A stretch of 35,355 nucleotides of DNA from Myxococcota bacterium (GCA_029941885.1 JAPYTP010000016.1:1-35355), one strand, 5' to 3'. Positions 19,355-33,929 are shown, counted from the stretch's first letter. Numbers and translations: made by a program. The notes: generated by a model not told the origin, from the sequence alone.

Positions 19355-20971
19355 ATGGAACTCAATTTTGCGACCGCCTGGGAGGCGATCTCCGACGAGA
19401 TTCCCCGTTCCGATGCACTGCTCCAAGGGGACACGCGCCGAAACTGGCGAGAATACGAAGACCGCGCAGCAAGACTCGCCTCCGCGCTACTCGCAGCGAA
19501 AATCCCGACTGCGGCCAACGTGGGCCTCGCCCTCTATAACGGACCGGAATATTCCGAGGCGCAGTTCGCTTGTTTCAAGCAGCGCGCCACGCCTTTCAAC
19601 GTCAACTTCCGCTACACCGCGGGCGAACTTCGCTCTCTGCTCGAAGGCGCGGATGCGGAGGCTCTTTTCTTCGATTCGACGTTGGCTGATGCGATCGACG
19701 AAATCCGGAGCGACCTGCCCTCCCTTCGGCTCTTCATTCAAGTTGGCGGCGACGACACACCCGACTGGGCGGAAAGCTACGAGACACTGATCGTGCGGTA
19801 CGGTCCCGCACCCCGGATCGAACGATCGCCGGATGATCTCTGGATGCTCTTCACCGGCGGGACCACCGGCAATCCCAAGGGCGTGATGTGGCCCCACGCA
19901 AACATGATTCTGACCATGAAGGCGACCTACGCCGGCCTGAAGCAGCGCGTTCCCCGAAACCTCGCGGAGCTGGTCGAATCCGTACGCAACATCACGGAGA
20001 GCGGGCGCGTGACCCGGCAGCTGGCCGCAGCCCCACTCATGCACGGCACGTCGGGGATCGCGGCGCTCACGACCCAGATGACCGGCGGCGCGATCATCAC
20101 CCTCGAAGAACGATCCTTCTCGGGAGACGCCCTGTTCCGCACCGTTGAGCGACACGCCGCCACCCACCTCACGATCGTGGGCGACGCCTTCAGCCGGCCC
20201 ATGCTCGAGGCCCTCGAGTCAGCCGTTTCGCGAAAGGACCCCTACGACCTGTCGTCGATCTTTCTCGTGTTGTCTTCGGGCGTGATGTGGAGCGCCCCGA
20301 TCAAGCAGGCACTCCTCTCGTTCAATCCACGCATGCGATTGATGGATTCCCTCGGTTCGTCCGAGGGCGTCGGGTTCGCGGCCAAGCTCGAAAGCGATCC
20401 GGACAAAGCAACGACCGGGCGCTTCAGCCTCGGTGAATTCACGAAAGTCATCAACGAAGAGGGTAAGGAAGTCACACCGGGCTCCGGCGAACGAGGAAGA
20501 CTCGCACTCGCTGGCCCCCTCCCGATTGGCTACTACAAAGATCCTGCGAAGAGCGAGGAGACCTGGCCAACGATCGATGGACGGCGTTATTCGATTCCCG
20601 GCGACTTCGCGACCATCGAAGCGGATGGGACGATCACGCTACTCGGACGGGGCTCGGCCTGCATCAACTCCGGTGGCGAGAAGATCTACCCCGAAGAGGT
20701 CGAGGAAGCGCTCAAATTGCATGAGGCGGTCACGGATTGCAACGTCATCGGAATCGCTGACGAACGCTGGGGCCAGGCGATTACGGCGGTGGTGCAACTC
20801 ACGAATACCCGAGTCGACGATGCGGCGCTGATCCAATCGGTCAAGGAAAACCTCGCGGGATACAAGGCCCCCAAACACATCGTTCGAGTCGATCGCTTGC
20901 AGCGACAGGCGAATGGCAAATCGGACTATCGCTGGGCCGCACGGGTCGCCCATGAAGCTCTCGGCAAGTAG
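19355..20971 (+). CDS. Acyl-CoA synthetase (FadD-like, AMP-forming)
   Basis: 538 aa. The start MELNFATAWEAISDEIPRSD is family-like; the frame is open upstream into the previous gene but with no homology. The ATP/AMP P-loop TGGTTGNPKGV lies at residues 167-177. A GSSEGVG-type adenine motif is read as LGSSEGVGF, and YSIPGDFATIEADG carries the ribose-binding Asp. The C-terminal GKSDYRW supplies the adenylation Lys. FRYTAGELRSLLEGADAEAL is typical of FadD-type enzymes that activate medium or bulky acids such as steroid side chains. It would make the CoA thioester in the cytoplasm for beta-oxidation. It is flanked by a flavoprotein and an SDR. The precise substrate is not readable. Confidence 0.95.
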   Translation: MELNFATAWEAISDEIPRSDALLQGDTRRNWREYEDRAARLASALLAAKIPTAANVGLALYNGPEYSEAQFACFKQRATPFNVNFRYTAGELRSLLEGADAEALFFDSTLADAIDEIRSDLPSLRLFIQVGGDDTPDWAESYETLIVRYGPAPRIERSPDDLWMLFTGGTTGNPKGVMWPHANMILTMKATYAGLKQRVPRNLAELVESVRNITESGRVTRQLAAAPLMHGTSGIAALTTQMTGGAIITLEERSFSGDALFRTVERHAATHLTIVGDAFSRPMLEALESAVSRKDPYDLSSIFLVLSSGVMWSAPIKQALLSFNPRMRLMDSLGSSEGVGFAAKLESDPDKATTGRFSLGEFTKVINEEGKEVTPGSGERGRLALAGPLPIGYYKDPAKSEETWPTIDGRRYSIPGDFATIEADGTITLLGRGSACINSGGEKIYPEEVEEALKLHEAVTDCNVIGIADERWGQAITAVVQLTNTRVDDAALIQSVKENLAGYKAPKHIVRVDRLQRQANGKSDYRWAARVAHEALGK

Positions 20972-21029: not shown

Positions 21030-21878
21030 ATGGGAGAATTGGACGGACGCGTCGCCCTCGTCACCGGTGCGAGCCGAGGCATCGGTGCCGCGATCGCGAA
21101 ACGATTCGGCGCCGAGGGCGCCAAAGTTGCAATCACGGCGAGAACCCTCGAAAAGCACGATCACCTCGCAGGCAACCTCGTCGACACGGCCAGGTTCATC
21201 GAGGAACAGGGCGGTCAGGCCGTCCCGATCGTCGGCGACCTCGCCGATTCGACGATTCTGGATGGCCTCGTTCGGCAAACCGAATCCGAACTCGGCCCGA
21301 TCGACGTCCTCGTCAACAACGCTGCCGCCGCGTTCTATCTCCCCTTTACGGACACCAGCGAAAAGCGATTCCGCGTCGCGAACGACATCAACTTCTACGC
21401 ACCCTGGCGGCTCTCGCAACTCGTCGTCCCCGGAATGCGTGAACGCGGTGAGGGATGGATCCTGAACATCTCCTCCGCCACATCCTTCTGGCCAAAACAA
21501 CCTTTCCAGGCCTTCGATGCGCTCTCGATCCTGTATGGGTCGACGAAGGCAGCGCTCGAACGCTTCACGACGGGACTCGCCGCAGCAGTCGCGAAGGACG
21601 GAATCTGGGTGAACTCCATGGCGCCGGTCGGCGCGGTTCCCACCGAGGGAACGGAGGCGCTCGGAGTCGTTCCGGAAGAAGCCCTGGCCGAAGCGGAGAG
21701 TCGAGAGGCGATGGCCGAGGCATCGCTCGGACTTTGCGTCACCCGCGATCCCGCGATGAATGGCCGCATCACTTTCTGCTCGCCCGTCCTCGAGGAACTG
21801 GAACGCAAGGTTTTCAGTGTCGATGGAAAGACTGAACTCGCCGGACCGCGCGAGGATCAGGCATCGGGATTCCGCTAG
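21030..21878 (+). CDS. SDR family oxidoreductase
   Basis: 282 aa from the ATG at 21030, with GGAG upstream; the longer frame runs back into the synthetase. Classical SDR features are TGASRGIG at 12-19, NNAAA (96-100), Ser148/149 in LNISSATS and Tyr169-GST-Lys173. A longer-than-usual loop between the Ser and Tyr (SFWPKQPFQAF) resembles citronellol- and hydroxysteroid-type SDRs that act on bulky alcohols. It lies 58 bp downstream of the acyl-CoA synthetase and is probably in the same operon. It could oxidise a 3-hydroxyacyl-CoA or another alcohol. Its stop overlaps the convergent cusA stop: the four bases CTAG serve both. Confidence 0.94.
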   Translation: MGELDGRVALVTGASRGIGAAIAKRFGAEGAKVAITARTLEKHDHLAGNLVDTARFIEEQGGQAVPIVGDLADSTILDGLVRQTESELGPIDVLVNNAAAAFYLPFTDTSEKRFRVANDINFYAPWRLSQLVVPGMRERGEGWILNISSATSFWPKQPFQAFDALSILYGSTKAALERFTTGLAAAVAKDGIWVNSMAPVGAVPTEGTEALGVVPEEALAEAESREAMAEASLGLCVTRDPAMNGRITFCSPVLEELERKVFSVDGKTELAGPREDQASGFR

Positions 21879-24800
21879 CGCTCGGGCTCGGCTTCGGCGG
21901 TCGGAAGGTTCCAGCCATGGACGATGGCGAAGCCGACCGGAATCACGATCAGGGTGACGAGCGTCGCGGTCACGACGCCGCCCACCATCGGGGCGGCGAT
22001 CCGTCGCATGGTTTCTGAGCCCGTGCCGGCTCCCCACATGATGGGCAGGAGCCCGATCACATCGGATGCGACCGTCATGAGCAGCGGCCTGGCCCGATCG
22101 GTGGCGCCTTCCACGATCGACTTCCACAGGTCCTCGACGGAGCGAAGGGTACCTGCCGCGATGGCACGGTCTCGCGCCTGGTTCAAGAAGAGCAGCATGA
22201 TGACGCCGGTCTCGGCGGTCAGCCCGAGCAGCGCCAGGAATCCGGCTCCCACTGCGACGCTCAGGTTGTAGTCGAGCGCCCAGAGAAGGACGATTCCACC
22301 GACGATGGCGAAGGGAAGCGACCCGATCACGAGTAGGGTGTCGGAGAGCTTTCGGAAATTGATATAGAGCAATAGGAAAATGATGCCGAGCGCGAGGGGT
22401 GCGATGATCAGGAGGCGATTCTGGGCGCGCTCGAGATACTCGTAACGGCCACTCCACTGCAAGCCGTATCCGGGTGGCAGGTCGACTCGTTCCGCGAGGA
22501 TCTTCCGGGCATTTCGGACGTATGTGCCCACATCGATCCCCTCGAGGTCGATGAAGACTCGCGCGTTGGGCCTCGAGTTCTCCGTCTTGATCGCCGGAGG
22601 ACCTTTCGAGAAGCGGAGCGTAGCGAGTTGCTCGAGGGGAACGCGCACCCCGGTGGGCGTCTGGACGAGGACTCGCCGCAACGAGGCAATATTGTCTCGC
22701 AGCTCCCGGCTGTAGCGGAGGTTGATGGGATACCGCTCGAGCCCTTCGATCGTCTGAGAAATATTCAACCCCCCGATCGCGGTCTGCACGACATCCTGGA
22801 CGTCGCCGACGGTCAGGCCGTATCGGGCAATCTTTTCCCTGTCGATGTCGAAGTCGAGGTAGTTCCCGCCGACCACTCGCTCTGCGAAGACACTGAGTGT
22901 GCCTGGGACGTCGCGTAGCACCGCCTCTATTTCCTCGCCCAGGTCTTCGAGCACGGCGAGATCGGGCCCGGAAATCTTGATGCCGACCGGCGTCTTGATT
23001 CCGGTCGAGAGCATGTCGATGCGAGTCTTGATCGGCATGGTCCAGGCATTCGTGAGACCGGGAATTCGAATCATTCCATCGAGCTCGGCGATGAGTTTCT
23101 GCGACGTCATCCCGGGTCGCCATTCACTCTTCGGCTTCAGCGTAATCGTGGTCTCGATCATCGAAAGCGGTGCGGAGTCCGTCGCCGTATCCGCTCGGCC
23201 GACCTTGCCGAAGACGCGCTCCACCTCGGGAACCGTGGCGATGATCCGATCGGTCTGCTGCAGGAGCTCTCGAGCCTTCGTAATGGAAATGCCAGGGAGC
23301 GTGGTCGGCATGTAGAGAAGATCCCCTTCGTCGAGCGGGGGCATGAACTCCTGGCCGAGGCGCGAAAGCGGATAGACACTCGAGACGAGCAAGAGAATCG
23401 CAACCGCGAGCACGACGAATCGGTGACGGAGAGAGGCGGCGAGAAACGGCCGGTAGGCGAAGAGAACCATCCGGTTGAGCGGATTTCGACTCTCCGGAAG
23501 AATCTTGCCCCGAACCAGCCAGATCATCAGAGCCGGAACGACGGTGATCGAAAGAAGAGCCGCCCCCGCCATCGCATAGGTCTTCGTAAAGGCGAGCGGT
23601 TTGAAAAGCCTCCCCTCCTGTGCCTCGAGCGCGAAGATGGGAAGAAATGAAACCGTCACGATGAGCAGCGAGAAGAAGAGTGAGGGACCCACCTCGACGG
23701 CTGCATCGATGAGAATTTCTGTGCGGGGTTTCTTTCCGCGATCGCGCTCGAGATGTTTATGTGCGTTCTCGACCATCACGATGCCCGCATCGATCATGGT
23801 TCCGATGGCAATCGCGATCCCGCCCAGGGACATGATGTTGGCGTTGATGCCCTGGTGGTACATCACGATGAACGAAAACAGGATACCGAGAGGCAGGAGG
23901 AGAATCGCCACGAGGGCGCTTCGGATATGCAGGAGGAAGGCGAAACAGATCAATGCAACGATCAGTCCCTGTTCCAGAAGCTTGTTGCGAAGATTCACTA
24001 CGGCACGTTCGATGAGAGGAGCGCGATCGTAGACAGTGACGATCTCGACACCGGGCGGAAGGTTTTCGGCGAGCTGGGCGAGCTTCTTCTTGACGTTTCG
24101 AATGGTCTCGAGCGCATTTTCACCGAAGCGCATGATGACTACGCCCGCCGCCACCTCTCCCTCGCCATTGAGGTCCGTGAGGCCCCGACGCAGTTCGGGG
24201 CCGAGCGAGATGGTGGCGACGCTGCGAAGCAGAATCGGGGTCCCGGACTCACTCGCGCCGACAGCGACCTGCTCGAGGTCTTCGATGGAACGGACGTATC
24301 CCCGCCCTCGCACCATGAACTCGGTTTCCGCCTGCTCGAGCAGCTTTCCGCCAACATCGCTGTTGCTGCGCTCGATCGCCCGACGAATCTGGGCGATGGA
24401 GAGCCCGAATGCGGCGAGCTGGTTGGGATCGACCTCGATCTGGTACTGGCGTACGTGGCCGCCGACGCTCGCGACCTCTGCGACGCCGGGGACCGTCTGG
24501 AGTTCGTAGCGAAGATGCCAATCCTGAATCGAGCGAAGCTCGGCCAGATCGTGATTTCCGGTGCGGTCGACGAGCGCATACTCGTAGACCCAGCCGACGC
24601 CGGTTGCGTCCGGCCCAAGCGTCGGCGTTACGCCGGGGGGGAGCCGACCCGACACGAAGTTGAGCGACTCGAGAACTCGACTTCTCGCCCAGTAGAGATC
24701 CGTTCCATCCTCGAAGATGATGTAGACGAAGGAGATCCCGAAAAAGGAGTCGCCGCGAACGACCTTGGCAAAGGGCACCGCGAGCATTGCGGTCGAGAGC

Positions 24801-25003
24801 GGATACGTCACCTGGTCTTCGACGACCTGCGGGGCCTGCCCCGTGTACTCCGTAAATACGATGACCTGAACATCCGACAGGTCCGGAATCGCATCGAGCG
24901 GCGTATTGGCGATCGCGTAGATCCCCCAGGCGACGAGGCCGGCGATCCCGAGCGCAACGAATGTGGGATTCCTCGCTGACCCTTCTACGATTCGTCGAAG
25001 CAT
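21875..25003 (-). CDS. cusA: CusA-type heavy-metal RND efflux pump (Cu+/Ag+)
   Basis: 1042 aa, full length for CusA/CzcA. The N-terminal NPLDAIPDLSDVQVIV-type segment (TPLDAIPDLSDVQVIVF), IAIGTMIDAGIVMVENAHKH (about 399-417, with the TM4 Asp405) and WSGRYEYLERA are subfamily hallmarks. Met565, Met615 and Met664 occur with spacings of 50 and 49 residues, the same as the substrate-binding Met573/623/672 of E. coli CusA. This supports copper(I)/silver(I) rather than Zn/Co specificity. Twelve hydrophobic segments are visible in two blocks. It is the last gene of a minus-strand operon, 5 bp after cusB. Its job is proton-driven export of metal from periplasm and cytoplasm through CusC. Confidence 0.97.
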   Translation of the reverse strand: MLRRIVEGSARNPTFVALGIAGLVAWGIYAIANTPLDAIPDLSDVQVIVFTEYTGQAPQVVEDQVTYPLSTAMLAVPFAKVVRGDSFFGISFVYIIFEDGTDLYWARSRVLESLNFVSGRLPPGVTPTLGPDATGVGWVYEYALVDRTGNHDLAELRSIQDWHLRYELQTVPGVAEVASVGGHVRQYQIEVDPNQLAAFGLSIAQIRRAIERSNSDVGGKLLEQAETEFMVRGRGYVRSIEDLEQVAVGASESGTPILLRSVATISLGPELRRGLTDLNGEGEVAAGVVIMRFGENALETIRNVKKKLAQLAENLPPGVEIVTVYDRAPLIERAVVNLRNKLLEQGLIVALICFAFLLHIRSALVAILLLPLGILFSFIVMYHQGINANIMSLGGIAIAIGTMIDAGIVMVENAHKHLERDRGKKPRTEILIDAAVEVGPSLFFSLLIVTVSFLPIFALEAQEGRLFKPLAFTKTYAMAGAALLSITVVPALMIWLVRGKILPESRNPLNRMVLFAYRPFLAASLRHRFVVLAVAILLLVSSVYPLSRLGQEFMPPLDEGDLLYMPTTLPGISITKARELLQQTDRIIATVPEVERVFGKVGRADTATDSAPLSMIETTITLKPKSEWRPGMTSQKLIAELDGMIRIPGLTNAWTMPIKTRIDMLSTGIKTPVGIKISGPDLAVLEDLGEEIEAVLRDVPGTLSVFAERVVGGNYLDFDIDREKIARYGLTVGDVQDVVQTAIGGLNISQTIEGLERYPINLRYSRELRDNIASLRRVLVQTPTGVRVPLEQLATLRFSKGPPAIKTENSRPNARVFIDLEGIDVGTYVRNARKILAERVDLPPGYGLQWSGRYEYLERAQNRLLIIAPLALGIIFLLLYINFRKLSDTLLVIGSLPFAIVGGIVLLWALDYNLSVAVGAGFLALLGLTAETGVIMLLFLNQARDRAIAAGTLRSVEDLWKSIVEGATDRARPLLMTVASDVIGLLPIMWGAGTGSETMRRIAAPMVGGVVTATLVTLIVIPVGFAIVHGWNLPTAEAEPER

Positions 25004-25008
25004 GGCGT

Positions 25009-26412
25009 CTACATCCCATCCATGGGCATCGGGGTGGATTCGCCCGACGAGGTCGTCGGCATCCCCGGCATGTCCATGCCGCTGTGGGCGGAGTGGTCCA
25101 TCGCTCCTTCTGCTTCCTTCGCCCCCTTGACGGATAGAAATTTCCTCCTGGCCTCCTGCAGATTGCTTTCGCTATCGATCAGGAACTGGCTCGATATCAC
25201 GACACGCTCGCCCTCGGAAAGACCCGAGCGCACTTCGAGCCAGCCGTCTGCCGAATCGAGTCCGATCGCGATATCGCGTGGCTCGAAACGACCCTCCCCC
25301 AGCGCAACGACGGCAACCGATCGGGTGCCCGAGCGAATGACCGCGCTGCTCGGAATGGCGAGCACGCCGGGATGAGGAGACCCCGCGATGACCGTGTTTG
25401 CGAACATTTCCGGCTTGAGGATGCCGGCGGAATTGTCGAGTTCGAGACGCACCTCTGCAGTGCGCGTCTTCGGGTCGAGGAAGGGGGCGATATAGGTCAC
25501 CTCGCCTCGCATCGGCTCGCCCGGCAGATAGCTGAGTTCGACCGTCGCTTCCTGACCGAGGTCGAGCCAGGGCAATTCGTACTCGTACACGTCTGCGAGT
25601 ACCCAGACCTTCGAGAGGTCCGCAATCGTGTAGAGATTCGCGTTCGGACTCACCTCCATTCCGGAGCGCACACCGAGTCGGGTGACGATGCCAGACTCCG
25701 GTGCATAGAGCGTAAGCGTTCTCTTGACCTGGCCTGTTCGCAGCAATTTTTCGATATCTCGCTCCGGGACATCCCAGAGCGCGAGACGGCGCTTCGTGGC
25801 GGCGAAGAGCGATTCACCGCCCCCCCGTACATCGTCGAAGGGACTCGCTTCAGTCGCTTCTCGATAGCGAGCCGCAAGGAGAAGCTCCTCCTGGGTTGCG
25901 ACGAGTTCGGGTGAATAGATTTCGAGGAGAGGCTGGCCGCGCTTCACCTCCTGTCCCACGAAATCGACCAACAGATTCTCGACCCATCCCTGCACTTTGG
26001 TGTGCACATGAGTCACGCGACGCTCGTCGTAGGCAACGCGTCCGACAGCCCGAACGAAGCGAACCATGTCTCGCCTCTCGACCGGGGTCGTTCGCACCCC
26101 GATATTCTGGATCGTGGCGGAGTCGATCACGACCACACCGTCGGTTGCGACATTGGCCCCGCTCGGACACTCCGGAACCAGGTCCATCCCCATCGGCGAC
26201 TTTCCAGGCATCTCGCGCACGTAGGTCGGGTCCATTGGCGCTTTCCAATAGAGGGGTGCGGCGCCACCCGGGCACGGCCCCTCGCGGTGTGAAGCGGTGT
26301 CACCCGGGTTCATCGAGCTCGGCGGGTGGAAAACGAGACCTCGCCCCCACCATCCGGCTCCGAGAGCCAGCAACAGACCGATCGCAACCAACAGCAGTTG
26401 TCGTTTGCTCAT
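25009..26412 (-). CDS. cusB: CusB-type periplasmic adaptor of the RND metal pump
   Basis: 467 aa. Residues about 5-20 form one membrane anchor. Residues 55-81 (YWKAPMDPTYV and PGKSPMGMDLVPE) are the heavy-metal-binding domain common in CusB proteins. Then come the adaptor barrel and lipoyl parts: QNIGVRTTPVERRDM, VQGWVENLLVDFVGQEVKRG and APESGIVTRLGVRSGMEV. A 30-residue C-terminal tail is rich in Met and His (DHSAHSGMDMPGMP), probably a metal-binding appendage. The ATG overlaps the cusC stop by 4 bp (ATGA) and cusA begins 5 bp after the stop, so the three are translationally coupled. It links CusA to CusC and passes metal to the pump. Confidence 0.96.
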   Translation of the reverse strand: MSKRQLLLVAIGLLLALGAGWWGRGLVFHPPSSMNPGDTASHREGPCPGGAAPLYWKAPMDPTYVREMPGKSPMGMDLVPECPSGANVATDGVVVIDSATIQNIGVRTTPVERRDMVRFVRAVGRVAYDERRVTHVHTKVQGWVENLLVDFVGQEVKRGQPLLEIYSPELVATQEELLLAARYREATEASPFDDVRGGGESLFAATKRRLALWDVPERDIEKLLRTGQVKRTLTLYAPESGIVTRLGVRSGMEVSPNANLYTIADLSKVWVLADVYEYELPWLDLGQEATVELSYLPGEPMRGEVTYIAPFLDPKTRTAEVRLELDNSAGILKPEMFANTVIAGSPHPGVLAIPSSAVIRSGTRSVAVVALGEGRFEPRDIAIGLDSADGWLEVRSGLSEGERVVISSQFLIDSESNLQEARRKFLSVKGAKEAEGAMDHSAHSGMDMPGMPTTSSGESTPMPMDGM

Positions 26413-27695
26413 CGAAGTTTCTCCCCTGCGGCCGCTTCGAGGGCGGCGAAGGCGCGCCGTCTATCGGCCTGCGCTCGAACCAGGCGAAGCTCGGCGTCGA
26501 GCAGCCGAACTTGACTGTCGAGAAGGCTCAGGAATTCGATCCGCCCAACTTCATACGCGGAACGACTCGCCTCGAGGGATTGTCTGGCTTGGGGAACCAG
26601 CCCGGTCTCGAGAAGGGCCACCTCGGAGGAAGCCCGGGTGAGCTTCGCATGGGCACGTCGGGTGAGTGAGACGAGCCCAGCACGCACCGCACGAAGATCC
26701 GCCTGCGTCCTTCGAACCTCCGCGTTCTGCTCGGCGACGCGGGATCTCCATTTGGAACGATCGACGGGCAGTCGAATCGTGAAGCCTGCGGAGATGAAGT
26801 CGTCCCCGTCGACCGGATCTCCCGAGACCTTCTTTCGGATGCGGTACCCGATCCCGAAGTCGATATCGGGTAACCCCTCGAGCTCCGCCGTGCGAACGCG
26901 CAACCTCGCAGCCGCGATCGTCTTTCGCGCGGCCGCGAGCCGAGCACTTCGTTCGTCGAGCGAATTGAGCAGCGGCTCGAGAAGAGGGCTTTCGGCCTGC
27001 AACAGGAGGTCATCCGTGCGAGGAAGGCGGGTCATGGCGGGCAGGTCGAGTAATTCGACGAGCAGCGACTCTGCGCGCTCGATGGCTTCGTTCCGACGCA
27101 ACCGTTCCTGGAGGAGCGCCGTGAGTTCCACCTGGGCTCGGAGCACATCCTGCTGAAGCCCACCGCCCACCCTGTATCTCGATTCGGCCGTCGCCGCTAG
27201 CTGGCGAAGCAGGCCGATGTTTCGATCGGTGATTTCGAGGGCGTGCTGAGCGAAGCCGAGCTCGGCCCAGGCCGTCTCGACTGCGCCGTCAGTCAGAAAC
27301 CTTTGATCGTCGACCAGGAGACCGGATGCCTCCGCGCCACTTCTCGCTGCGTCCTTACGACTCGCGAGGAGGCCGGGATACGGGAGCTTCTGACGAAGTC
27401 CAATCTGGTGACCAGAAAGCGGTGTCGACCCGAAGTCAAAATCACCCGTCGGAATGTTGCTTGCTTCGTACGCGAATCGTGGGTCGTCGAGCGCACCGGC
27501 TGAACCGACGCGGTGGCGTGCCGCGATTGCGACGGCCGTCATTCGGTCGAGAGTCGGATTCGCCACCCGAGCGCGCTCGAGACACCAGGCCAACGCGAGC
27601 GGTTGGGGAATCTCCGGTGAGTCGTCGACCGCGCTCGCTACGAGGGGAATCGATCCGAACAACAAGACCGCAACGGCTCGAGTCAGGATTTTCAT
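26409..27695 (-). CDS. cusC: CusC-type TolC-family outer-membrane channel
   Basis: 428 aa if started at the ATG at 27695, which gives a clean signal peptide (MKILTRAVAVLLFGSIPLVASA). An ATG at 27803, preceded by GGGAGTGAGG, would add 36 basic residues and cannot be excluded. The mature part has two repeats of the outer-membrane factor type, with long helices such as AVETAWAELGFAQHALEITDR and RLRVRTAELEGLPDIDFGIGY, and a closing helix SQVRLLDAELRLVRAQADRRRAF. There is no lipobox, unlike E. coli CusC. It forms the exit duct for the CusBA pump. It overlaps cusB by 4 bp. Confidence 0.93.
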   Translation of the reverse strand: MKILTRAVAVLLFGSIPLVASAVDDSPEIPQPLALAWCLERARVANPTLDRMTAVAIAARHRVGSAGALDDPRFAYEASNIPTGDFDFGSTPLSGHQIGLRQKLPYPGLLASRKDAARSGAEASGLLVDDQRFLTDGAVETAWAELGFAQHALEITDRNIGLLRQLAATAESRYRVGGGLQQDVLRAQVELTALLQERLRRNEAIERAESLLVELLDLPAMTRLPRTDDLLLQAESPLLEPLLNSLDERSARLAAARKTIAAARLRVRTAELEGLPDIDFGIGYRIRKKVSGDPVDGDDFISAGFTIRLPVDRSKWRSRVAEQNAEVRRTQADLRAVRAGLVSLTRRAHAKLTRASSEVALLETGLVPQARQSLEASRSAYEVGRIEFLSLLDSQVRLLDAELRLVRAQADRRRAFAALEAAAGEKLR

Positions 27696-27952
27696 CGCCA
27701 CAGCGACCCTCGGCGGCGGTCCAATCCATAGACCGGTGCGCCGCCCAGGAAGCCCGTTGCTCGAGCGAACGCGGAGCCCGCCCAGCTTGGTTCTTCGTGT
27801 CATGACCTCACTCCCAAAATCTCAATCCCGCGGCGCGAGATGAAGCGCGGCGGTCGTTGGCACGGTGCGGGCCAGGGGCGGGCGAATAGCGGACGAGGTC
27901 CGAAACGCAGCTGTGCCCTTGGCGCGCCGAGTCGCTCAGAAATTTCGGGTAT

Positions 27953-28330
27953 TCAGATCAGGAGAGTCGATTTGACGAGCAGGATGTCAGGCGGCGGCAA
28001 GTCGATGTTGCGAGCGATCGACGATGCCGCGCTCTCGAAGGCGGCGCTGAGATCGGGGCCGCGACGCACCGGAGCCACATGGAGGTGGGTCTGTTTGAGA
28101 TTGGAATCGCTCGCCTGGCTGGCGAACGCCTCCGGGGCGAGTTCACAGCCACAGCCCTCGTGCGAAGCAGGCTCTTCCGCAGGCGACGGACCCGAACTCT
28201 CGTCATGACACGAATGCCCGACAGCCGCCGAGTCCGGCGCGGGGTTTTCGACGCAGGCCAGGGCACAAATCGGCGCCTGCAGCACGAAGAATGCTGTCAG
28301 TGTCGCGATGAGCCCAGTTCGTCGCTTCAT
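27953..28330 (-). CDS. Small secreted Cys/His-rich protein at the head of the cus operon
   Basis: 125 aa, starting with a classical signal peptide (MKRRTGLIATLTAFFVLQAP) and a likely cleavage site near CALA-C (22-26). The mature part carries HSCH (39-42), HEGCGC (57-62) and HLH (82-84), set in an acidic, flexible Pro/Glu/Ser region. It ends in PPPDILLVKSTLLI, a tail I associate with small proteins found upstream of metal RND operons. There is no known enzymatic motif. The likely role is periplasmic copper/silver capture or delivery, taking the place of CusF, which is absent. It lies 257 bp upstream of cusC on the same strand. Frame and signal peptide are clear; the function is inferred. Confidence 0.75.
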   Translation of the reverse strand: MKRRTGLIATLTAFFVLQAPICALACVENPAPDSAAVGHSCHDESSGPSPAEEPASHEGCGCELAPEAFASQASDSNLKQTHLHVAPVRRGPDLSAAFESAASSIARNIDLPPPDILLVKSTLLI

Positions 28331-28469: not shown

Positions 28470-29639
28470 TCACGCCTGACCGAAGATCACGGCTCCCGTA
28501 GGAACACCGACACCGCTCGTGACGAGTACGTGCTCTACGTCGTCCGGCTGATTGCAGGACTCCCCGCGGATCAGCCGCACACCCTCGGCAATATTGTTCA
28601 CGCCGTGCATATAGGCCTCCGAGAGCAGGCCGCCGTGGGTGTTGTTCGGAAGCGCGCCACCGATCGTGAGCGAGTCCTCGGTCACGAAATCCTTGGCCTC
28701 GCCCTTGCCGCAAAAACCGAAGGCCTCGAGCTGCATGAGGATCTCGGGTGTGAATGCGTCATAGAGGCACGCCGCGTCCATATCCTTGGGGCCGAGCCCG
28801 CTCATCTCGTAGACGATCTTCGCGGCAAGCTCCATTTCTGGAAGCGCCGCGAGGTCTTCACGATAGAAACTCGTCATCTGTTCCTGCCCCTCGAAGGAGG
28901 CCTGGGTCACGGCGCGGATGACCGCGGGCTTCTGTTTCATGTCCCGGGCCCGCTCGGGTGAAGTGATCAGCAGCGCACAGCCGCCATCGTCTTCCTGGCA
29001 ACAGTCGAAGAGTCGCAGCGGTTCACAGACCATGCGCGAATTCATGTAGTCGTCCATCGTCATGGGCTTCCCGTACATGGCCGCGTTCGGATTATTCTGG
29101 GCGTGCATCCGCTGGGTGATCGCGACATGGGCGAGGTGCTCCGCCGTCGCACCGTACTTGTCCATGTAGAGGGTCGCCTGGAGAGCGATCCATGAGGCCG
29201 GCGTGAGCAGGCCGAAGGGCATGTACCAGGACCAATGGATCAGGTCGCTCGAGATGATACTGCCCGAGACGCCCTGCCCCATCCGCTGCCCGGATCGTCC
29301 ATTCAACGCACGATAGACGACGACGTTCTTCGCCTGACCGGTAGCGACCGCCATCGCGGCGTGGGTGATGAGACCAACCGCAGCGCCACCTCCGTAGTTG
29401 ACCTGGCTCCAGTAGGTCATGTCGCCAATGCCGACCGTCCGAGCGACTTCGACCTCGTCACTCGAGTCCATCGTATAGGTGACGAGTCCATCGACCTCGC
29501 TTGGATCGATCCCGGCATCGTCGATCGCGTTCCGAACCGCTTCGGTGGCGAGTTGGAGCTCGGAGACCCCCGAATTCTTCGTGTACGCGGTCTGACCGAT
29601 TCCGGCTATGGCCGCTTCGTTGTGGAGTGTCGTCGGCAT
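28470..29639 (-). CDS. ltp2: Thiolase-fold Ltp2-like aldolase/lipid-transfer protein
   Basis: 389 aa (M. tuberculosis Ltp2 is about the same length). The thiolase-fold signature starts AAIAGIGQTAYTK and includes NAIDDAGIDPSEVDGL. Where a true thiolase has its nucleophilic Cys, this protein reads NYGGGAAVG (81-89), so it should not make or break a thioester C-C bond by thiolysis. Tyr293 (CLYDAF) and Tyr343 (SEAYMHG) sit where the catalytic tyrosines of Ltp2-type retro-aldolases are expected. It is preceded by ChsH1- and ChsH2-like genes in the order known for steroid side-chain removal. Partnered with the DUF35 domain of ChsH2, it probably cleaves a tertiary beta-hydroxyacyl-CoA to a ketone and a short acyl-CoA. 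The substrate is inferred. Confidence 0.9.
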   Translation of the reverse strand: MPTTLHNEAAIAGIGQTAYTKNSGVSELQLATEAVRNAIDDAGIDPSEVDGLVTYTMDSSDEVEVARTVGIGDMTYWSQVNYGGGAAVGLITHAAMAVATGQAKNVVVYRALNGRSGQRMGQGVSGSIISSDLIHWSWYMPFGLLTPASWIALQATLYMDKYGATAEHLAHVAITQRMHAQNNPNAAMYGKPMTMDDYMNSRMVCEPLRLFDCCQEDDGGCALLITSPERARDMKQKPAVIRAVTQASFEGQEQMTSFYREDLAALPEMELAAKIVYEMSGLGPKDMDAACLYDAFTPEILMQLEAFGFCGKGEAKDFVTEDSLTIGGALPNNTHGGLLSEAYMHGVNNIAEGVRLIRGESCNQPDDVEHVLVTSGVGVPTGAVIFGQA

Positions 29640-29645
29640 GTCGTG

Positions 29646-29658
29646 TTCTCTCGTTTCT
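29646..29658 (-). repeat. Leader element AGAAACGAGAGAA, copy 1 (upstream of ltp2-like)
   Basis: This 13-base purine-rich stretch, reading AGAAACGAGAGAA on the minus strand, sits 7 bases upstream of the ltp2-like ATG. The same 13 bases occur upstream of the chsH1-like gene at 30173-30185. Both include GAGAG and could act as ribosome-binding sites or mark a duplicated leader. Confidence 0.55.
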
Positions 29659-29761
29659 TTCGTGTCGGGCCGGAGCGGCGTGTAGGCTCGATGGATGTGA
29701 TTCGGAATCAGCCGTTAGTCAATCCGAGCGGCGGCGGCCGATTGCAAGAGCAGCGAGCGGC

Positions 29762-30169
29762 CTACGGCAACAACAGGGAGAAGGTCGCGGTCACGTGATT
29801 GCCCCAGGCGTTGTTGCCCGCGACTTCCACGTCGACGCTCTTGCCCTCGGTAGCGACCACCTTCCCGCGGATCTTCAACACGTCTCCGGGCATATTCGGT
29901 CCACCGAGCTTGGTTCGAACCTGCGTCACGATCGCGTCGGGCCCCGCCCAGTCCGTCACATAGCGACTACAGATGCCCTGAGTCGTCAGGATGTTCATAA
30001 AGATATCGGGCAAGCCCTGGGCGACTGCGACCGCCTTGTCGTGATGGACGGGCGTGTAGTCTCGCGAGGCGAGCGCGCCGCCCGCCACGATCGTCGCCGT
30101 GGTTGCGAGATCGAGCGCCGGCAATTCCTGGCCGACCTCGAGTTCGCCTGCGGAGAACGTCTTTTTCAT
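29762..30169 (-). CDS. chsH1: ChsH1-like MaoC-family enoyl-CoA hydratase subunit
   Basis: 135 aa from the ATG at 30169, with GAGAGAAAAG just upstream. The hot-dog fold MaoC motif SRDYTPVHHD holds the Asp37/His42 dyad of hydratase-2-type active sites. LPDIFMNILTTQGICSRYVTDWAGP (about 53-77) matches the conserved ChsH1 segment. ChsH1 alone lacks a full CoA-binding dimer and pairs with the MaoC half of ChsH2. The heteromer hydrates the enoyl-CoA made from a steroid side chain. The gene is 57 bp downstream of the chsH2-like stop and 122 bp before ltp2. The overall trio order equals that in mycobacteria. Related trios also serve other branched acids, so a steroid substrate is inferred. Confidence 0.9.
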   Translation of the reverse strand: MKKTFSAGELEVGQELPALDLATTATIVAGGALASRDYTPVHHDKAVAVAQGLPDIFMNILTTQGICSRYVTDWAGPDAIVTQVRTKLGGPNMPGDVLKIRGKVVATEGKSVDVEVAGNNAWGNHVTATFSLLLP

Positions 30170-30172
30170 CTT

Positions 30173-30185
30173 TTCTCTCGTTTCT
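30173..30185 (-). repeat. Leader element AGAAACGAGAGAA, copy 2 (upstream of chsH1-like)
   Basis: Identical over 13 bases to the element at 29646-29658, and likewise a few bases upstream of an ATG (30169). No third copy precedes the chsH2-like start. The shared leader suggests similar translation control or a duplication. Confidence 0.55.
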
Positions 30186-30220
30186 GTCGATCGCACGGGT
30201 CGTCCGCCCGGCTCGGCGCA

Positions 30221-30238
30221 CAAGCCTAGGCAGGCTTG
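30221..30238. other. Inverted repeat at the chsH2-like stop codon
   Basis: CAAGCCT and AGGCTTG form a perfect 7-bp stem with a 4-nt loop (AGGC). The stop codon of the chsH2-like gene (30226-30228) lies in the stem and loop. The hairpin falls between the chsH2-like and chsH1-like genes; with no T-run after it, mRNA processing or translation control is likelier than termination. Confidence 0.45.
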
Positions 30239-31203
30239 AAGAAGGGAATCTTGAATCCGTCTTCGTCTTCATGAATGAGGACCTCGACGGCCATGCCAAT
30301 CTTCACGTCCTCGGGATTGCAGTCGACCAGGGTCGACGCCATGCGTTCCCCCTCTTCGAGGTCCACGATCACCGAGATCATCGGGTACTCGTAGCCCGGG
30401 AACTGCGGGTAGTGAACGACCGTGAACGTATGGACGGTCGCCTTTCCGCTCGCATCGATCGAATCGAAGCCCTGTTCGCCGCACGCGTCACACATGGGCC
30501 GCGGCGGATGACGCAGTTTTTGACAACCCGTGCAGCGTTGAATCGGGATCACATTCGCTTCGGCGACTCGCTCCCACCACCAGCCGTTGTCGTGGCCCAT
30601 CGGGGGTTTGATTCGCGACGGTTTCTGCGCCACCGCGTCTTCTCCGTCGCCCGAGGACGCCGCCGGCTGCGGGTTCGCCGGCTTGAAGCGCAGGACCCGA
30701 AAGCTCATCGAGCCCAGATCTTCGCCGTCCTGGTTCTCGAAGGTCGTCTTCGTGGTGATGAAATATCCGATGCCCGCGCCGGTCGCCTTCTCCTCCGAGA
30801 TCTCGTCGATCACCGTCAACGATTTCACACGCTCGCCGAGCTTCAAATAGCGCGTGTAGTTCTCTTCGGTATTCGTACCGAGGACGCCCGTGTAGCCATT
30901 GTTCGCGAGCAACTTGTGGAGGCGATGCTGCTCGTTCTTGGGCTCGTCATAGCCCTCGTGCATCTCCCATCCCTCCATGACCCAGGCCTGGAGCATGGTC
31001 GGGGGCGCCACGATCTCACCGTGCACGGTTGCCTTGGCGGCCTCCGGGTCGAGATAGGCGGGATGGGTTTCACCCATCGCGTCACACCATTGGCGGATCA
31101 TCGGCTCGTTGATCGGGTCACGACCGGTCACCGCGGGCCCAATCGGCTTGCCCACGTAGCTCCGGATTTCGGCCTCGAGGGCCTTCTTCTTCTCGTCGCT
31201 CAT
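30226..31203 (-). CDS. chsH2: ChsH2-like protein: MaoC N-domain fused to DUF35 OB-fold/zinc ribbon
   Basis: 325 aa (mycobacterial ChsH2 is about 310). Residues about 15-175 are a MaoC_N-type hot-dog domain: INEPMIRQWCDAMGETHPAY, IVAPPTMLQAWV, YTRYLKLGERV and SFRVLRFKP. A flexible Ser/Gly/Asp linker (about 178-195) leads to a DUF35 domain: four Cys at 224, 227, 238 and 241 (CTGC, CDAC) form a rubredoxin-like zinc ribbon, and an OB fold follows to residue 325. In the known system the first half pairs with ChsH1 and the DUF35 half binds the Ltp2 aldolase. It is the first of the trio here. The methyltransferase gene lies 99 bp upstream on the same strand. Confidence 0.92.
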   Translation of the reverse strand: MSDEKKKALEAEIRSYVGKPIGPAVTGRDPINEPMIRQWCDAMGETHPAYLDPEAAKATVHGEIVAPPTMLQAWVMEGWEMHEGYDEPKNEQHRLHKLLANNGYTGVLGTNTEENYTRYLKLGERVKSLTVIDEISEEKATGAGIGYFITTKTTFENQDGEDLGSMSFRVLRFKPANPQPAASSGDGEDAVAQKPSRIKPPMGHDNGWWWERVAEANVIPIQRCTGCQKLRHPPRPMCDACGEQGFDSIDASGKATVHTFTVVHYPQFPGYEYPMISVIVDLEEGERMASTLVDCNPEDVKIGMAVEVLIHEDEDGFKIPFFKPA

Positions 31204-31302
31204 CGCGGATCCTCGACTCGTGATATCCCACTCGCGCGAGAATGGGGTCCCGACCAGCGGGGTCGCGAGTCTAGCGAGCGAAAAAGCGAAATCGACCGGC
31301 TG

Positions 31303-31917
31303 CTAGACCGATCGCGTCGCGACCCCTCGGTACATCTGGGCGACGATTCCAGGACCCTTCGCTCGAAAGCGGTCGAGGCTCTTCAGCTCGAAGCCGCCCT
31401 CCTCCACCAGTCGATCGATCTTGCGATTGATATTGCAGCCATCGCAGAGGCGATTCCAGAGCGGGTTGATCCGGTCCTGCCAGCGGGCCGTCCCCTCGGC
31501 TTCGGCGCGTCCGTGCTCGATGAACACATACCGTCCGCCGGGCTTCAGAACGCGCCGCATCTCACGCAGGGCGCGATCGACTTCGGGAATCGAGCACAGG
31601 GTCCAGGTCGTGACGACGGTGTCGAATCTTCCGGCATCGAAGGGCAGGCCCCCATCCGCTCGCAGTGTGCGACGCTCGATGGGAAACGACGCGTTGCCGA
31701 TCCGGGACTGGACGGATGCGACATCCGCGACGTCGAGAGGATCCAGTCCCACGAGGGTTTTCACCGCCGGTCCGTAGTAGGCAAGGTTCAGCCCAGTCCC
31801 GAATCCGACTTCGAGCACTTCCCCTTCCGCTTCGGCGATCGTATCGACCCGAAGCGGATTCATCTGCCGCATCGCCAGGTCTTGAAACCTGGGCTTGATC
31901 CAAGTCCTGATCCCCAC
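31303..31917 (-). CDS. Class I SAM-dependent methyltransferase
   Basis: 204 aa, starting at GTG (31917), three bases after the amidohydrolase stop, so the two are very likely co-transcribed. Motif I is VLEVGFGTGLN (34-44), and GLDPLD (about 57-62) follows as the SAM ribose acidic region. TTWTLCSIPEVDRALREMRRVLKPGGRYVFIEHG (about 104-137, read in parts) is the Methyltransf_11 core. CDGCNINRKI (about 163-172) has two Cys. The type resembles small METTL7-like and phospholipid/quinone methyltransferases in proteobacteria. There is no membrane segment. The substrate is unknown. Confidence 0.92.
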   Translation of the reverse strand: MGIRTWIKPRFQDLAMRQMNPLRVDTIAEAEGEVLEVGFGTGLNLAYYGPAVKTLVGLDPLDVADVASVQSRIGNASFPIERRTLRADGGLPFDAGRFDTVVTTWTLCSIPEVDRALREMRRVLKPGGRYVFIEHGRAEAEGTARWQDRINPLWNRLCDGCNINRKIDRLVEEGGFELKSLDRFRAKGPGIVAQMYRGVATRSV

Positions 31918-31920
31918 CGA

Positions 31921-33645
31921 TCAGGCGCTCGCGCCGCCGGGAACCTCGACAGTCGCCGTGTCCCGACCACTGCGGAAGATGGTCCCCGGGCGGGCTCCGG
32001 TATCCTTGCCATCGCGAACGATTTCGATGCCGTTTGCAAAGACGTGCTCGACACCCTTGGCATCCGCGTAGAGGCGACCCGCGCCCGCCGGAAGGTCGTA
32101 TTTGGTGTACGTCTCCCCCAGGCCGATCTCGTCGGGATCGAATACCACGATATCCGCATGCCAACCCTCTTCGATCCGACCACGCTCACGCAATCCGTAG
32201 AGACGCGCCGGAACGTCGGTCAGCTGCCGAACCGCCTCCTCGATCGTGATGAGCTTGCGTTCTCGCACGCCCTCGCTGAGGACCTGGCTCGAGAATGCAA
32301 ACGTGTCGATCATATCGAGATGGGCACCCGCGTCCGAGGCACCGATGATCGTGCGATCGTCATGCCAGAGATCGGCGCGCAACTGCCAGGTCTCATCGTC
32401 CTCGCCCATGGTCGGCGGCATGAAGTACGTCTGGAAATCATCTTCGATTGCGATGTCGATCAGCGTGTCGAAGGGGGTCTTGCCGAGTTCCTGTGCGAGT
32501 TCGCCGATATTCCGACCGCGATACTTCTTGAGGGAGTCCTTCTGGACTTGATCGATGCTGAAATTCTCCCAGTTCGCAAGCAGGTGCATCGGCGAATCGG
32601 GATTCTGTGCGTCCTCGCCGAACTGCTTTCGTTTCACCGGATCATTCAGGAAGGCGATCTTCTCTTCCTTGGACAATCGGAAGAAGGGTGCCCAGTTATG
32701 GAGCGCGTCGAAAACGAAACCCGAATCCAGATTGATTCGAATCGTCATCGGCTGCGGCACCGTCAGCGCGATCACTTCCGCACCCCGCTTGCGCGCGATA
32801 TCGGTCGCCGCCAGCTGCTTTTGCGCATACTCGATATTTGCAGCGTTCGGGACGAGCACGTTCCAGTTGACCGGCCGGTTCGCGGCGAGGGAGATATCAG
32901 CCATGTAATTGGCCTCCTCTTCCCCCCATCCGACGCCAGGCAGGAATTCGACCGTCGTGCCCTCGAAGTCCCGCACCTGGCGGGCCAGTGTGAGCATCTC
33001 GTGCTTCGACGCGTGACGCGAGGGGACCGGATTGCCGTCGGCGTCGTTGTGCGTCGACGAGATGGTCGAAGAGAAGCCCATGCCCCCCTCCTCGAGAGAT
33101 CGGCGAAGCAATGCGACCATCTCCTTCAGCTCGCCCTCGTTGGCCTCGGAACCGACGGCGCGCTCCCTCATCACCGTCCGGCGCAGGGCGGAATGGCCGA
33201 CCATGAAGCCCGCATTCACCGAGAGTCGACCCTCGAGCTGATCGAGATATTCACCGAAGGACTCCCAGTTCCAGGGGACGCCTTGTTCCAGACTCTCGAG
33301 CGGCATGCCCTCCACCCGCGAGAGCATCTTCATCAGATACTCGCCGGCCTCGGGCGAGAGCGGCGCGATACTGAAACCGCAGTTGCCCCCAATGACGCTG
33401 GTCACGCCATGATAGGGCGACGGACTGAGCGTTCCGTCCCAGAATGCCTGGGCGTCGTAGTGGGTGTGCACATCGACGAAGCCCGGCGCCACGATCTTGC
33501 CGCTCGCGTCGATGGTCTGGCGGACGTCTTCGTCGATCGCACCGATTGCGACGATCTGCCCGTCTCGGATCCCGACATCGCCCACGCGCGATGCGGTACC
33601 CGTCCCGTCGACGATCGTTCCGCCCTTGATGAGTACGTCCAGCAT
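31921..33645 (-). CDS. N-acyl-D-amino-acid deacylase-like amidohydrolase
   Basis: 574 aa from the ATG at 33645, which follows AAAGGAAGAG; the upstream 57-codon extension is Arg-rich and not counted. The start MLDVLIKGGTIVDGTG and PGFVDVHTHYD (HxHxD, His60, His62, Asp64) are the amidohydrolase metal ligands. VGHSALRRTVM, MADISLAANRPVNWN, an internal SDAGAHLDMIDTF (the SDAG Asp ligand), and VVFDPDEIG near the C-terminus follow. Length and motifs fit the D-aminoacylase/dihydroorotase-like subgroup of this TIM-barrel superfamily. It hydrolyses an amide or related bond with bound metal. It is divergent from the Rieske oxygenase gene (284-bp gap) and heads the run toward the chsH2-chsH1-ltp2 genes. 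Confidence 0.93.
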   Translation of the reverse strand: MLDVLIKGGTIVDGTGTASRVGDVGIRDGQIVAIGAIDEDVRQTIDASGKIVAPGFVDVHTHYDAQAFWDGTLSPSPYHGVTSVIGGNCGFSIAPLSPEAGEYLMKMLSRVEGMPLESLEQGVPWNWESFGEYLDQLEGRLSVNAGFMVGHSALRRTVMRERAVGSEANEGELKEMVALLRRSLEEGGMGFSSTISSTHNDADGNPVPSRHASKHEMLTLARQVRDFEGTTVEFLPGVGWGEEEANYMADISLAANRPVNWNVLVPNAANIEYAQKQLAATDIARKRGAEVIALTVPQPMTIRINLDSGFVFDALHNWAPFFRLSKEEKIAFLNDPVKRKQFGEDAQNPDSPMHLLANWENFSIDQVQKDSLKKYRGRNIGELAQELGKTPFDTLIDIAIEDDFQTYFMPPTMGEDDETWQLRADLWHDDRTIIGASDAGAHLDMIDTFAFSSQVLSEGVRERKLITIEEAVRQLTDVPARLYGLRERGRIEEGWHADIVVFDPDEIGLGETYTKYDLPAGAGRLYADAKGVEHVFANGIEIVRDGKDTGARPGTIFRSGRDTATVEVPGGASA

Positions 33646-33929
33646 GGCTCTTCCTTTCGCGATCCTTCTCGCGGTTCCTCGCTCGAGTTCGCCGTCCGAC
33701 CCGTCGCGTCGTCCGAGGACGAGCCGCGCCCCGCGCCCGATTCTCAGCGTCGTGAGGACGGTGCCGTCGAGACGCCCAGCGGGCAGGCCAGCGGGGGTTG
33801 ATGCCCGATTCTCCATTTTGGCACAGGGAATCCACGTCGCACCTACCCATTCACCCCGATCCTGAGAAGATTTGCGGAAAAGAAGCCCCTAGAATGATCT
33901 CCAGGCCTAGAGATGGAGAATACCAAGCC
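33646..33929. other. 284-bp divergent gap, no gene called
   Basis: This gap separates the amidohydrolase and Rieske gene starts. Frames on both strands stay open but are Arg/Ser/Pro-rich with no family features. It should hold promoters for both genes. An alternative Rieske start at 33894 would extend into it. I see no strong hairpin or operator. Confidence 0.5.

Follow-up and report, generated by a model that had tools for sequence, protein, structure and literature searches.

We analysed a 35,355-nucleotide stretch of DNA from a Myxococcota bacterium (GCA_029941885.1, JAPYTP010000016.1:1-35355; hereafter the window), which encodes on its minus strand, at 28470-31203, a ChsH2-like protein, a ChsH1-like hydratase and an Ltp2-like aldolase, in that order. 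These three genes, referred to as the trio, probably constitute one half of a split module for steroid side chains, namely the hydratase and retro-aldolase acting in trans, with the acyl-coenzyme A (acyl-CoA) dehydrogenase FadE supplied from elsewhere. ChsH1, through its Asp/His dyad, and the inert ChsH2 MaoC domain would together hydrate the double bond in an enoyl-CoA whose side chain is short and hindered, most probably what is left of a sterol side chain at the C3 (20-carboxyl-CoA) stage. Docked by the DUF35 domain of ChsH2, the aldolase would split the carbon-carbon bond to give propionyl-CoA and a 17-ketosteroid, with Tyr293 as the base and Tyr343 as the acid. The trio descends from an operon of the order FadE-ChsH2-FadE-ChsH1-Ltp2-FadA5-type thiolase-short-chain dehydrogenase/reductase (SDR), having lost its own dehydrogenase pair, and in this genus would work in trans with a FadE heterodimer encoded elsewhere, most probably at the canonical igr site on contig C3.

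Identity and catalytic residues of the trio

The genes and the motifs on which the assignment depends are as follows (lengths in amino acids, aa).

30226..31203, minus strand: ChsH2-like protein, 325 aa; FAS1_DH_region, zf-ChsH2 and OB_ChsH2_C, all above Pfam cut-offs
30481..30534, minus strand: C4 zinc finger of the ChsH2-like DUF35 domain, C224-x2-C227-x10-C238-x2-C241; from sequence
29762..30169, minus strand: ChsH1-like MaoC hydratase, 135 aa from its own ATG; Pfam MaoC_dehydratas, PDB 4w78_B
28470..29639, minus strand: Ltp2-like retro-aldolase, 389 aa, thiolase fold without nucleophilic Cys; NF005892, PDB 6ok1_A
28752..28763, minus strand: YDAF motif of the aldolase, Y293 D294 A295 F296; from an alignment of 105 Ltp2 proteins
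28611..28613, minus strand: Tyr343 of the aldolase, equivalent to the general acid Tyr344 of Thermomonospora curvata Ltp2; invariant in 105/105 (PMC12329534)

The order and strand of the three open reading frames (ORFs) agree with a preliminary description of this DNA, and the intergenic gaps are 56 and 122 bp. The aldolase scored 586 bits against the NCBIfam model NF005892 'lipid-transfer protein' (cut-off 469), and its best match in the PDB was T. curvata Ltp2 (TcLtp2; 6ok1_A, E=6.6e-138), with which it shares 56% identity. The ChsH2-like protein matched structures from Mycobacterium tuberculosis (4wnb/4w78, E ~2e-31) as well as 6ok1_B (2e-27), and the ChsH1-like protein matched the M. tuberculosis chain 4w78_B (E=1.3e-29), all of these being far beyond chance. 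An AlphaFold2 model of the aldolase, computed from 23 natural sequences (mean predicted local distance difference test score 80, predicted template modelling score 0.86), was closest to the Ltp2-ChsH2(DUF35) structure 6ok1 (template modelling score 0.92), with Sal-Shy (9myr) next at 0.86.

The ChsH2-like protein is the MaoC-DUF35 fusion that had been proposed earlier. Its N-terminal part (residues ~20-180) is a MaoC hot-dog domain in which Tyr replaces the catalytic His in GETHPAYLD, and this domain is predicted to be non-catalytic; the known inert ChsH2 likewise has Tyr in place of the dyad His (PMC11321319). The C-terminal part (residues ~199-325) comprises a zinc ribbon and an oligonucleotide/oligosaccharide-binding fold (DUF35), and the CxxC-CxxC finger is of the C4 type found in ChsH2, not of the Cys3His type of Shy (both types are defined in PMC12329534). 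The dyad of the ChsH1-like protein, Asp37/His42, is intact (RDYTPVHHD, aligned with the C3 copy and with M. tuberculosis ChsH1), as previously noted. The two proteins therefore have the make-up of a ChsH1-ChsH2 heteromeric hydratase, namely an Asp/His subunit and an inert MaoC subunit (Tyr for His) fused to a C4 DUF35 domain.

The aldolase reads YGGGAA where the thiolase nucleophile would stand and SGVGVPTG further on, and has neither the nucleophilic Cys nor the second Cys (CxG) of SCP2-type thiolases; the catalytic Cys that would have contradicted the preliminary description did not appear in the alignment. Tyr293 occupies the position of the base Tyr294 of TcLtp2 and Tyr343 that of the acid Tyr344, and both Tyr343 and the YD[AH]F Tyr are invariant in 105/105 homologues. 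The Cys of YDCY, Gln352 and the Cys3His finger that mark Sal and Shy are absent, the window proteins having YDAF, Tyr343 and the C4 finger at these places. In phylogenetic trees the proteins grouped with Ltp2/ChsH and not with acetyl-CoA acetyltransferases. Judged by sequence, the trio is thus a genuine Ltp2/ChsH relative.

Dehydrogenase genes and the canonical igr site

As had been reported earlier, no FadE28/29-like pair lies beside the trio, which sits mid-contig in the window with other genes on its flanks; the chsE1-chsE2 pair of an igr-type operon is absent from the window and present on contig C3 of the same genome. Most relatives of the window aldolase within its clade (see below) are encoded in the seven-gene operon given above, preceded by TetR in some, not all. 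Since this wider arrangement includes the FadE pair, the FadA5-type thiolase and the SDR, the missing pair of the trio is a derived state. We used the ChsH2-to-Ltp2 distance as a read-out of a FadE gene between them in 46 genomes of the order: 21/46 had room for FadE (1.55-1.64 kb) and 25/46 were trio-only (0.43-0.62 kb), 23 of the latter belonging to the window's family. The Ltp2 tree, as sampled, shows three or more switches in the FadE state. The subclade of the window (G000-G006, G008, G012 and G053; ten rows, support 100) is trio-only, and its sisters have FadE. The nearest relatives of the trio beyond this subclade lie in another family (f4) and not in that of the window, so horizontal replacement within the order may have occurred. 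In one further genome (G022 C74, locus L198), a 143-aa ChsH2-type protein of DUF35 size adjoins an Ltp2 sharing 73% identity with that of the window, and gene calling gave no MaoC next to them.

The rest of the seven-gene operon is still recognisable on contig C41, which keeps TetR, a FadA5-type thiolase, an SDR, a ferredoxin, two DUF35-like and two thiolase-like genes, without ChsH2, ChsH1 or Ltp2. The thiolase passes the 'steroid 3-ketoacyl-CoA thiolase' equivalog (590 bits, cut-off 515) and matches FadA5 (PDB 4ubv, E 5e-137). In trees of FadE proteins, the FadE class of the seven-gene operon was absent from the genus, and the three pairs of the own genome (on C3, C41 and C2) fell in other classes. 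The C41 pair, which lies beside the thiolase and SDR, was considered as the relocated pair of the operon and rejected, as it forms a separate class in both FadE trees; pairs of the C41 class and of the operon coexist in other genomes, such as G045 and G046.

Contig C3 carries a full five-gene igr-type operon, FadE-ChsH2-FadE-ChsH1-Ltp2 (YDHF), between Nqr genes and a RecQ-like helicase gene (site A), and the window trio is consequently a second copy. The preliminary description had placed the module outside its classic setting; this holds for the lack of an adjacent FadE, but the classic operon is also present in the genome. Across the genus, site A is complete in G000 and G001. In G002, G003, G004, G007 and G008 it holds FadE, a ChsH2 of 177-208 aa without DUF35, FadE and ChsH1, and no Ltp2 was found there by tblastn. 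In G005 and G006 only the FadE pair is left, ChsH1 and ChsH2 being gone too, and G012 is similar at its C3-type FadE pair. Thus, site A has lost Ltp2 and DUF35 and kept the FadE pair in seven of nine genus genomes. The window-type aldolase is found in all nine (in G007 as a partial Ltp2 only), and seven of them have no other close Ltp2. Because the trio persists where site A has lost these parts and kept its dehydrogenases, the simplest interpretation is that it has assumed hydration and retro-aldol cleavage, or at any rate the cleavage, on behalf of the site-A FadE pair, and the partner of the trio is most probably the pair at the C3 site.

At site A, Ltp2 has disappeared together with precisely the DUF35 domain, while ChsH1 and the MaoC part of ChsH2 remain; this provides natural evidence that DUF35 and the aldolase are one functional unit, separable from the hydratase. 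In Comamonas testosteroni TA441, the MaoC part of ChsH2 and DUF35 are functional when expressed apart (PMC12502768). A search that asks whether FadE is adjacent would miss such a split module.

Several related loci were seen alongside these. The truncated site-A ChsH2 genes of the congeners are at L189, L225, L226, L228, L229 and L233. A 335-aa protein on contig C99 of the own genome (L165:723-1730) matches both the ChsH2 MaoC domain and ChsH1 and is likely a fused MaoC-MaoC hydratase without DUF35. Clusters of the type P450-FadE-ChsH2-FadE-ChsH1-Ltp2 in nontuberculous mycobacteria (L063:2067-8164 and similar loci) have ChsH2 split into MaoC and DUF35 genes, and the Ltp2 of these Mycobacterium clusters branches away from TcLtp2. 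The own genome gave 33 matches to Ltp2/thiolase-like proteins, several of which adjoin a DUF35 protein.

The YDAF clade, its substrate and alternative readings

The motif that reads YDHF in 75 of the 105 Ltp2 proteins reads YDAF in the remaining 30, including the window aldolase, in which Ala295 takes the place of the oxyanion-hole His. A tree of 110 proteins (quick search in IQ-TREE, Shimodaira-Hasegawa-like approximate likelihood ratio test, SH-aLRT) placed the window aldolase in a clade of 28, which has an SH-aLRT support of 100 and is set off by a stem 0.46 changes per column long. The members of this clade come from metagenome-assembled genomes (MAGs) labelled Myxococcota/Deltaproteobacteria or Candidatus Binatota, together with a single uncultured proteobacterium and a single Steroidobacteraceae; in the family of the window, one genome has a locus identical to isolate OFTM73. 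TcLtp2, the enzymes of Rhodococcus, Mycobacterium, Streptomyces and gammaproteobacteria, and the C3 copy of the own genome lie outside. YDAF is found in 28/28 clade members and YDHF in 75/77 other aligned proteins, the two exceptions (L085_6977 and L089_1510) being without most other clade-specific residues. In an Acidimicrobiaceae igr-type operon (L085:6977-9300), two Ltp2 genes stand in tandem, one YDAF and one YDHF, and the Ala there is of independent origin. In the trees of ChsH2 and ChsH1, the window proteins have the relatives found for Ltp2, indicating that the trio travels as a unit.

The TcLtp2 oxyanion hole includes His296, and replacing this residue lowered the efficiency 14-fold (PMC12329534). 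The His is thus supportive rather than essential in TcLtp2, and the window aldolase is a variant, not a plain Ltp2. On this basis, the YDAF clade should have kept the capacity for retro-aldol cleavage, perhaps by means of another hydrogen-bond donor or on another substrate. The earlier proposal of a module equivalent to the mycobacterial one therefore stands as regards family and phylogeny, but not for a plain equivalence of Ltp2. The natural His-to-Ala change at a position mutated in the laboratory offers a ready test of the role of this His.

Genes elsewhere in the genome bear on the substrate. Five proteins scored above the KshA_C cut-off, and the one checked had KshA structures as its best PDB match; none of the KshA-like proteins had an NCBIfam model at E<=1e-30. 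Several flavoproteins resemble delta4-(5alpha)-ketosteroid dehydrogenase (KSTD), with an E of 2e-108 to 4at0 for the one checked. A search with the Pfam FAD_binding_2 domain gave mostly delta4-(5alpha)-KSTD-like proteins; one 569-aa protein matched KstD models below their cut-offs, and no protein passed a strict KstD model. BphC/HsaC-type extradiol dioxygenase domains are also present. On account of these KshA-like, ketosteroid dehydrogenase-like and BphC/HsaC-type genes and the FadA5-type thiolase, a steroid or sterol-like substrate appears favoured over fatty or branched acids. The range of sterols, other polycyclics or branched acids suggested at first is thereby narrowed, with branched acids less favoured.

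Several points weigh against the proposed function. The change at position 295 removes a residue worth 14-fold in TcLtp2, and activity or substrate may differ. The own genome retains a complete YDHF igr operon, which makes the trio formally redundant there. The FadE pairs on C41 and C2 are equally possible partners, the C2 type being present in 7/9 genus members. The genomes are MAGs (the own one 92% complete with 6% contamination, those of the genus 76-95% complete), so that absences are read from incomplete assemblies; the trees are quick ones, the KstD and KshA assignments are by similarity only, and the function of the trio is predicted from sequence and a structural model.

The most serious alternative, which we consider rather unlikely, is that the retro-aldolases of the YDAF clade act on some other CoA thioester (another sterol side-chain length, a hopanoid/triterpenoid or another polycyclic isoprenoid), alongside the YDHF Ltp2 and not in its place. 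Positions 295 (A/H), 340 (S/G) and 377 (V/T) separate the clade (28/28) from the YDHF proteins (75/75), and positions 169, 170 and 244 nearly do so. The first three lie in or near active-site loops, 340 being three residues ahead of Tyr343 and 377 in the loop that corresponds to that of the second Cys in thiolases. The own genome also keeps both the YDAF and YDHF versions, as do several genomes of other families. However, in its two catalytic Tyr residues and its C4 DUF35 the trio conforms to the Ltp2/ChsH2 type, and the loss of the YDHF Ltp2 with retention of the FadE pair in 7/9 genus members is what replacement predicts. That the trio includes a thiolase-type protein with a DUF35 partner is very improbable: the fold and partner are shared, but thiolases retain a catalytic Cys that the window aldolase lacks, the similarity is far lower (E about 1e-22 to 1e-30 vs 1e-138), and two MaoC hydratase parts are fused or adjacent here. 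An ordinary igr module with an adjacent FadE pair overlooked through an assembly gap or annotation error, as the FadE pairs flanking most homologues might suggest, is refuted by synteny in independent genomes, for the trio lies within its contig between other genes, nine other close relatives share the trio-only layout and the genus has no FadE of the operon's class.

More speculatively, the YDAF clade may represent a new functional class of DUF35-docked aldolase, with the oxyanion held without His and a substrate other than the C3 steroid thioester, carried by a mobile hydratase-aldolase cassette that was repeatedly split from its FadE pair and displaced canonical igr aldolases; we regard this as doubtful at present.

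The bacteria known to remove sterol side chains are, to our knowledge, chiefly actinobacteria and alpha-, beta- and gammaproteobacteria. In the present data, an uncultured Myxococcota/Binatota-like lineage also widely carries the complete machinery for the last cycle, including an aldolase sub-family of its own. The chemistry and the ChsH1-ChsH2-Ltp2 complex are already known. Literature searches on YDHF-type variants and on steroid degradation in UBA9160-type bacteria returned only the Sal paper as relevant and no description of the YDAF clade, its seven-gene operon or its splitting, all of which appear to be new.

Surroundings of the trio and comparison with known systems

Two genes lie upstream of the trio on the same strand.

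31303-31917, minus strand: methyltransferase
31921-33645, minus strand: amidohydrolase

Within the genus the order of the trio is kept, with identities of 77-92% for ChsH2 and 90-96% for Ltp2. The methyltransferase and amidohydrolase adjoin it in close congeners only; they were rejected as module members, since more distant relatives have lost them from beside the trio, and are probably not part of it. A weak terminator-like hairpin (31314-31293) lies between the methyltransferase and ChsH2, terminator counts being only modestly above shuffles, and a promoter scan found 0 against 1.2 expected. A long plus-strand ORF (30103-33801) overlaps the trio and is an antisense shadow, since the gene calls based on hexamer score fall on the minus strand.

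On the other side of the trio, a CzcCBA-like RND (resistance-nodulation-division) metal-efflux block with a small Cys/His-rich protein (21875-28330) separates it from an SDR gene (21030-21878) in the own genome and G001. The SDR directly adjoins the trio in G002-G005, and the block therefore looks recently inserted. An acyl-CoA ligase (19355-20971) has no close solved relative and is not conserved beside the trio, and an aldehyde:ferredoxin oxidoreductase-type protein (AFOR_N and AFOR_C) is encoded at 6210-7934.

Among characterized systems, the trio shares its domain make-up and gene order with ChsH1-ChsH2-Ltp2 of the M. tuberculosis igr locus and with T. curvata Ltp2-ChsH2(DUF35) (6ok1, 4w78, 4wnb), as well as the Asp/His of ChsH1, the Tyr base and Tyr acid of Ltp2 and the C4 zinc finger. 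Unlike these, it has YDAF for YDHF, belongs to a separate clade, lacks an adjacent ChsE1/ChsE2 and comes from an uncultured Gram-negative lineage. ORF40-44 of C. testosteroni TA441, the proteobacterial igr counterpart (PMC12502768), likewise combine a MaoC-DUF35 fusion, a MaoC protein and an aldolase for propionyl removal, but have the dehydrogenase pair in the same cluster, whereas here the two lie apart. Sal-Shy of C. testosteroni (PDB 9myr) is similar in having a thiolase-fold aldolase docked by a DUF35 domain; however, the YDCY Cys and Gln352 of Sal, and Shy as a single homomeric hydratase with a Cys3His finger, find no counterpart in the window proteins. DUF35-partnered thiolases share the thiolase fold and the DUF35 partner, and differ in their thiolase/acyl-transfer chemistry with a catalytic Cys and in having no MaoC partners.

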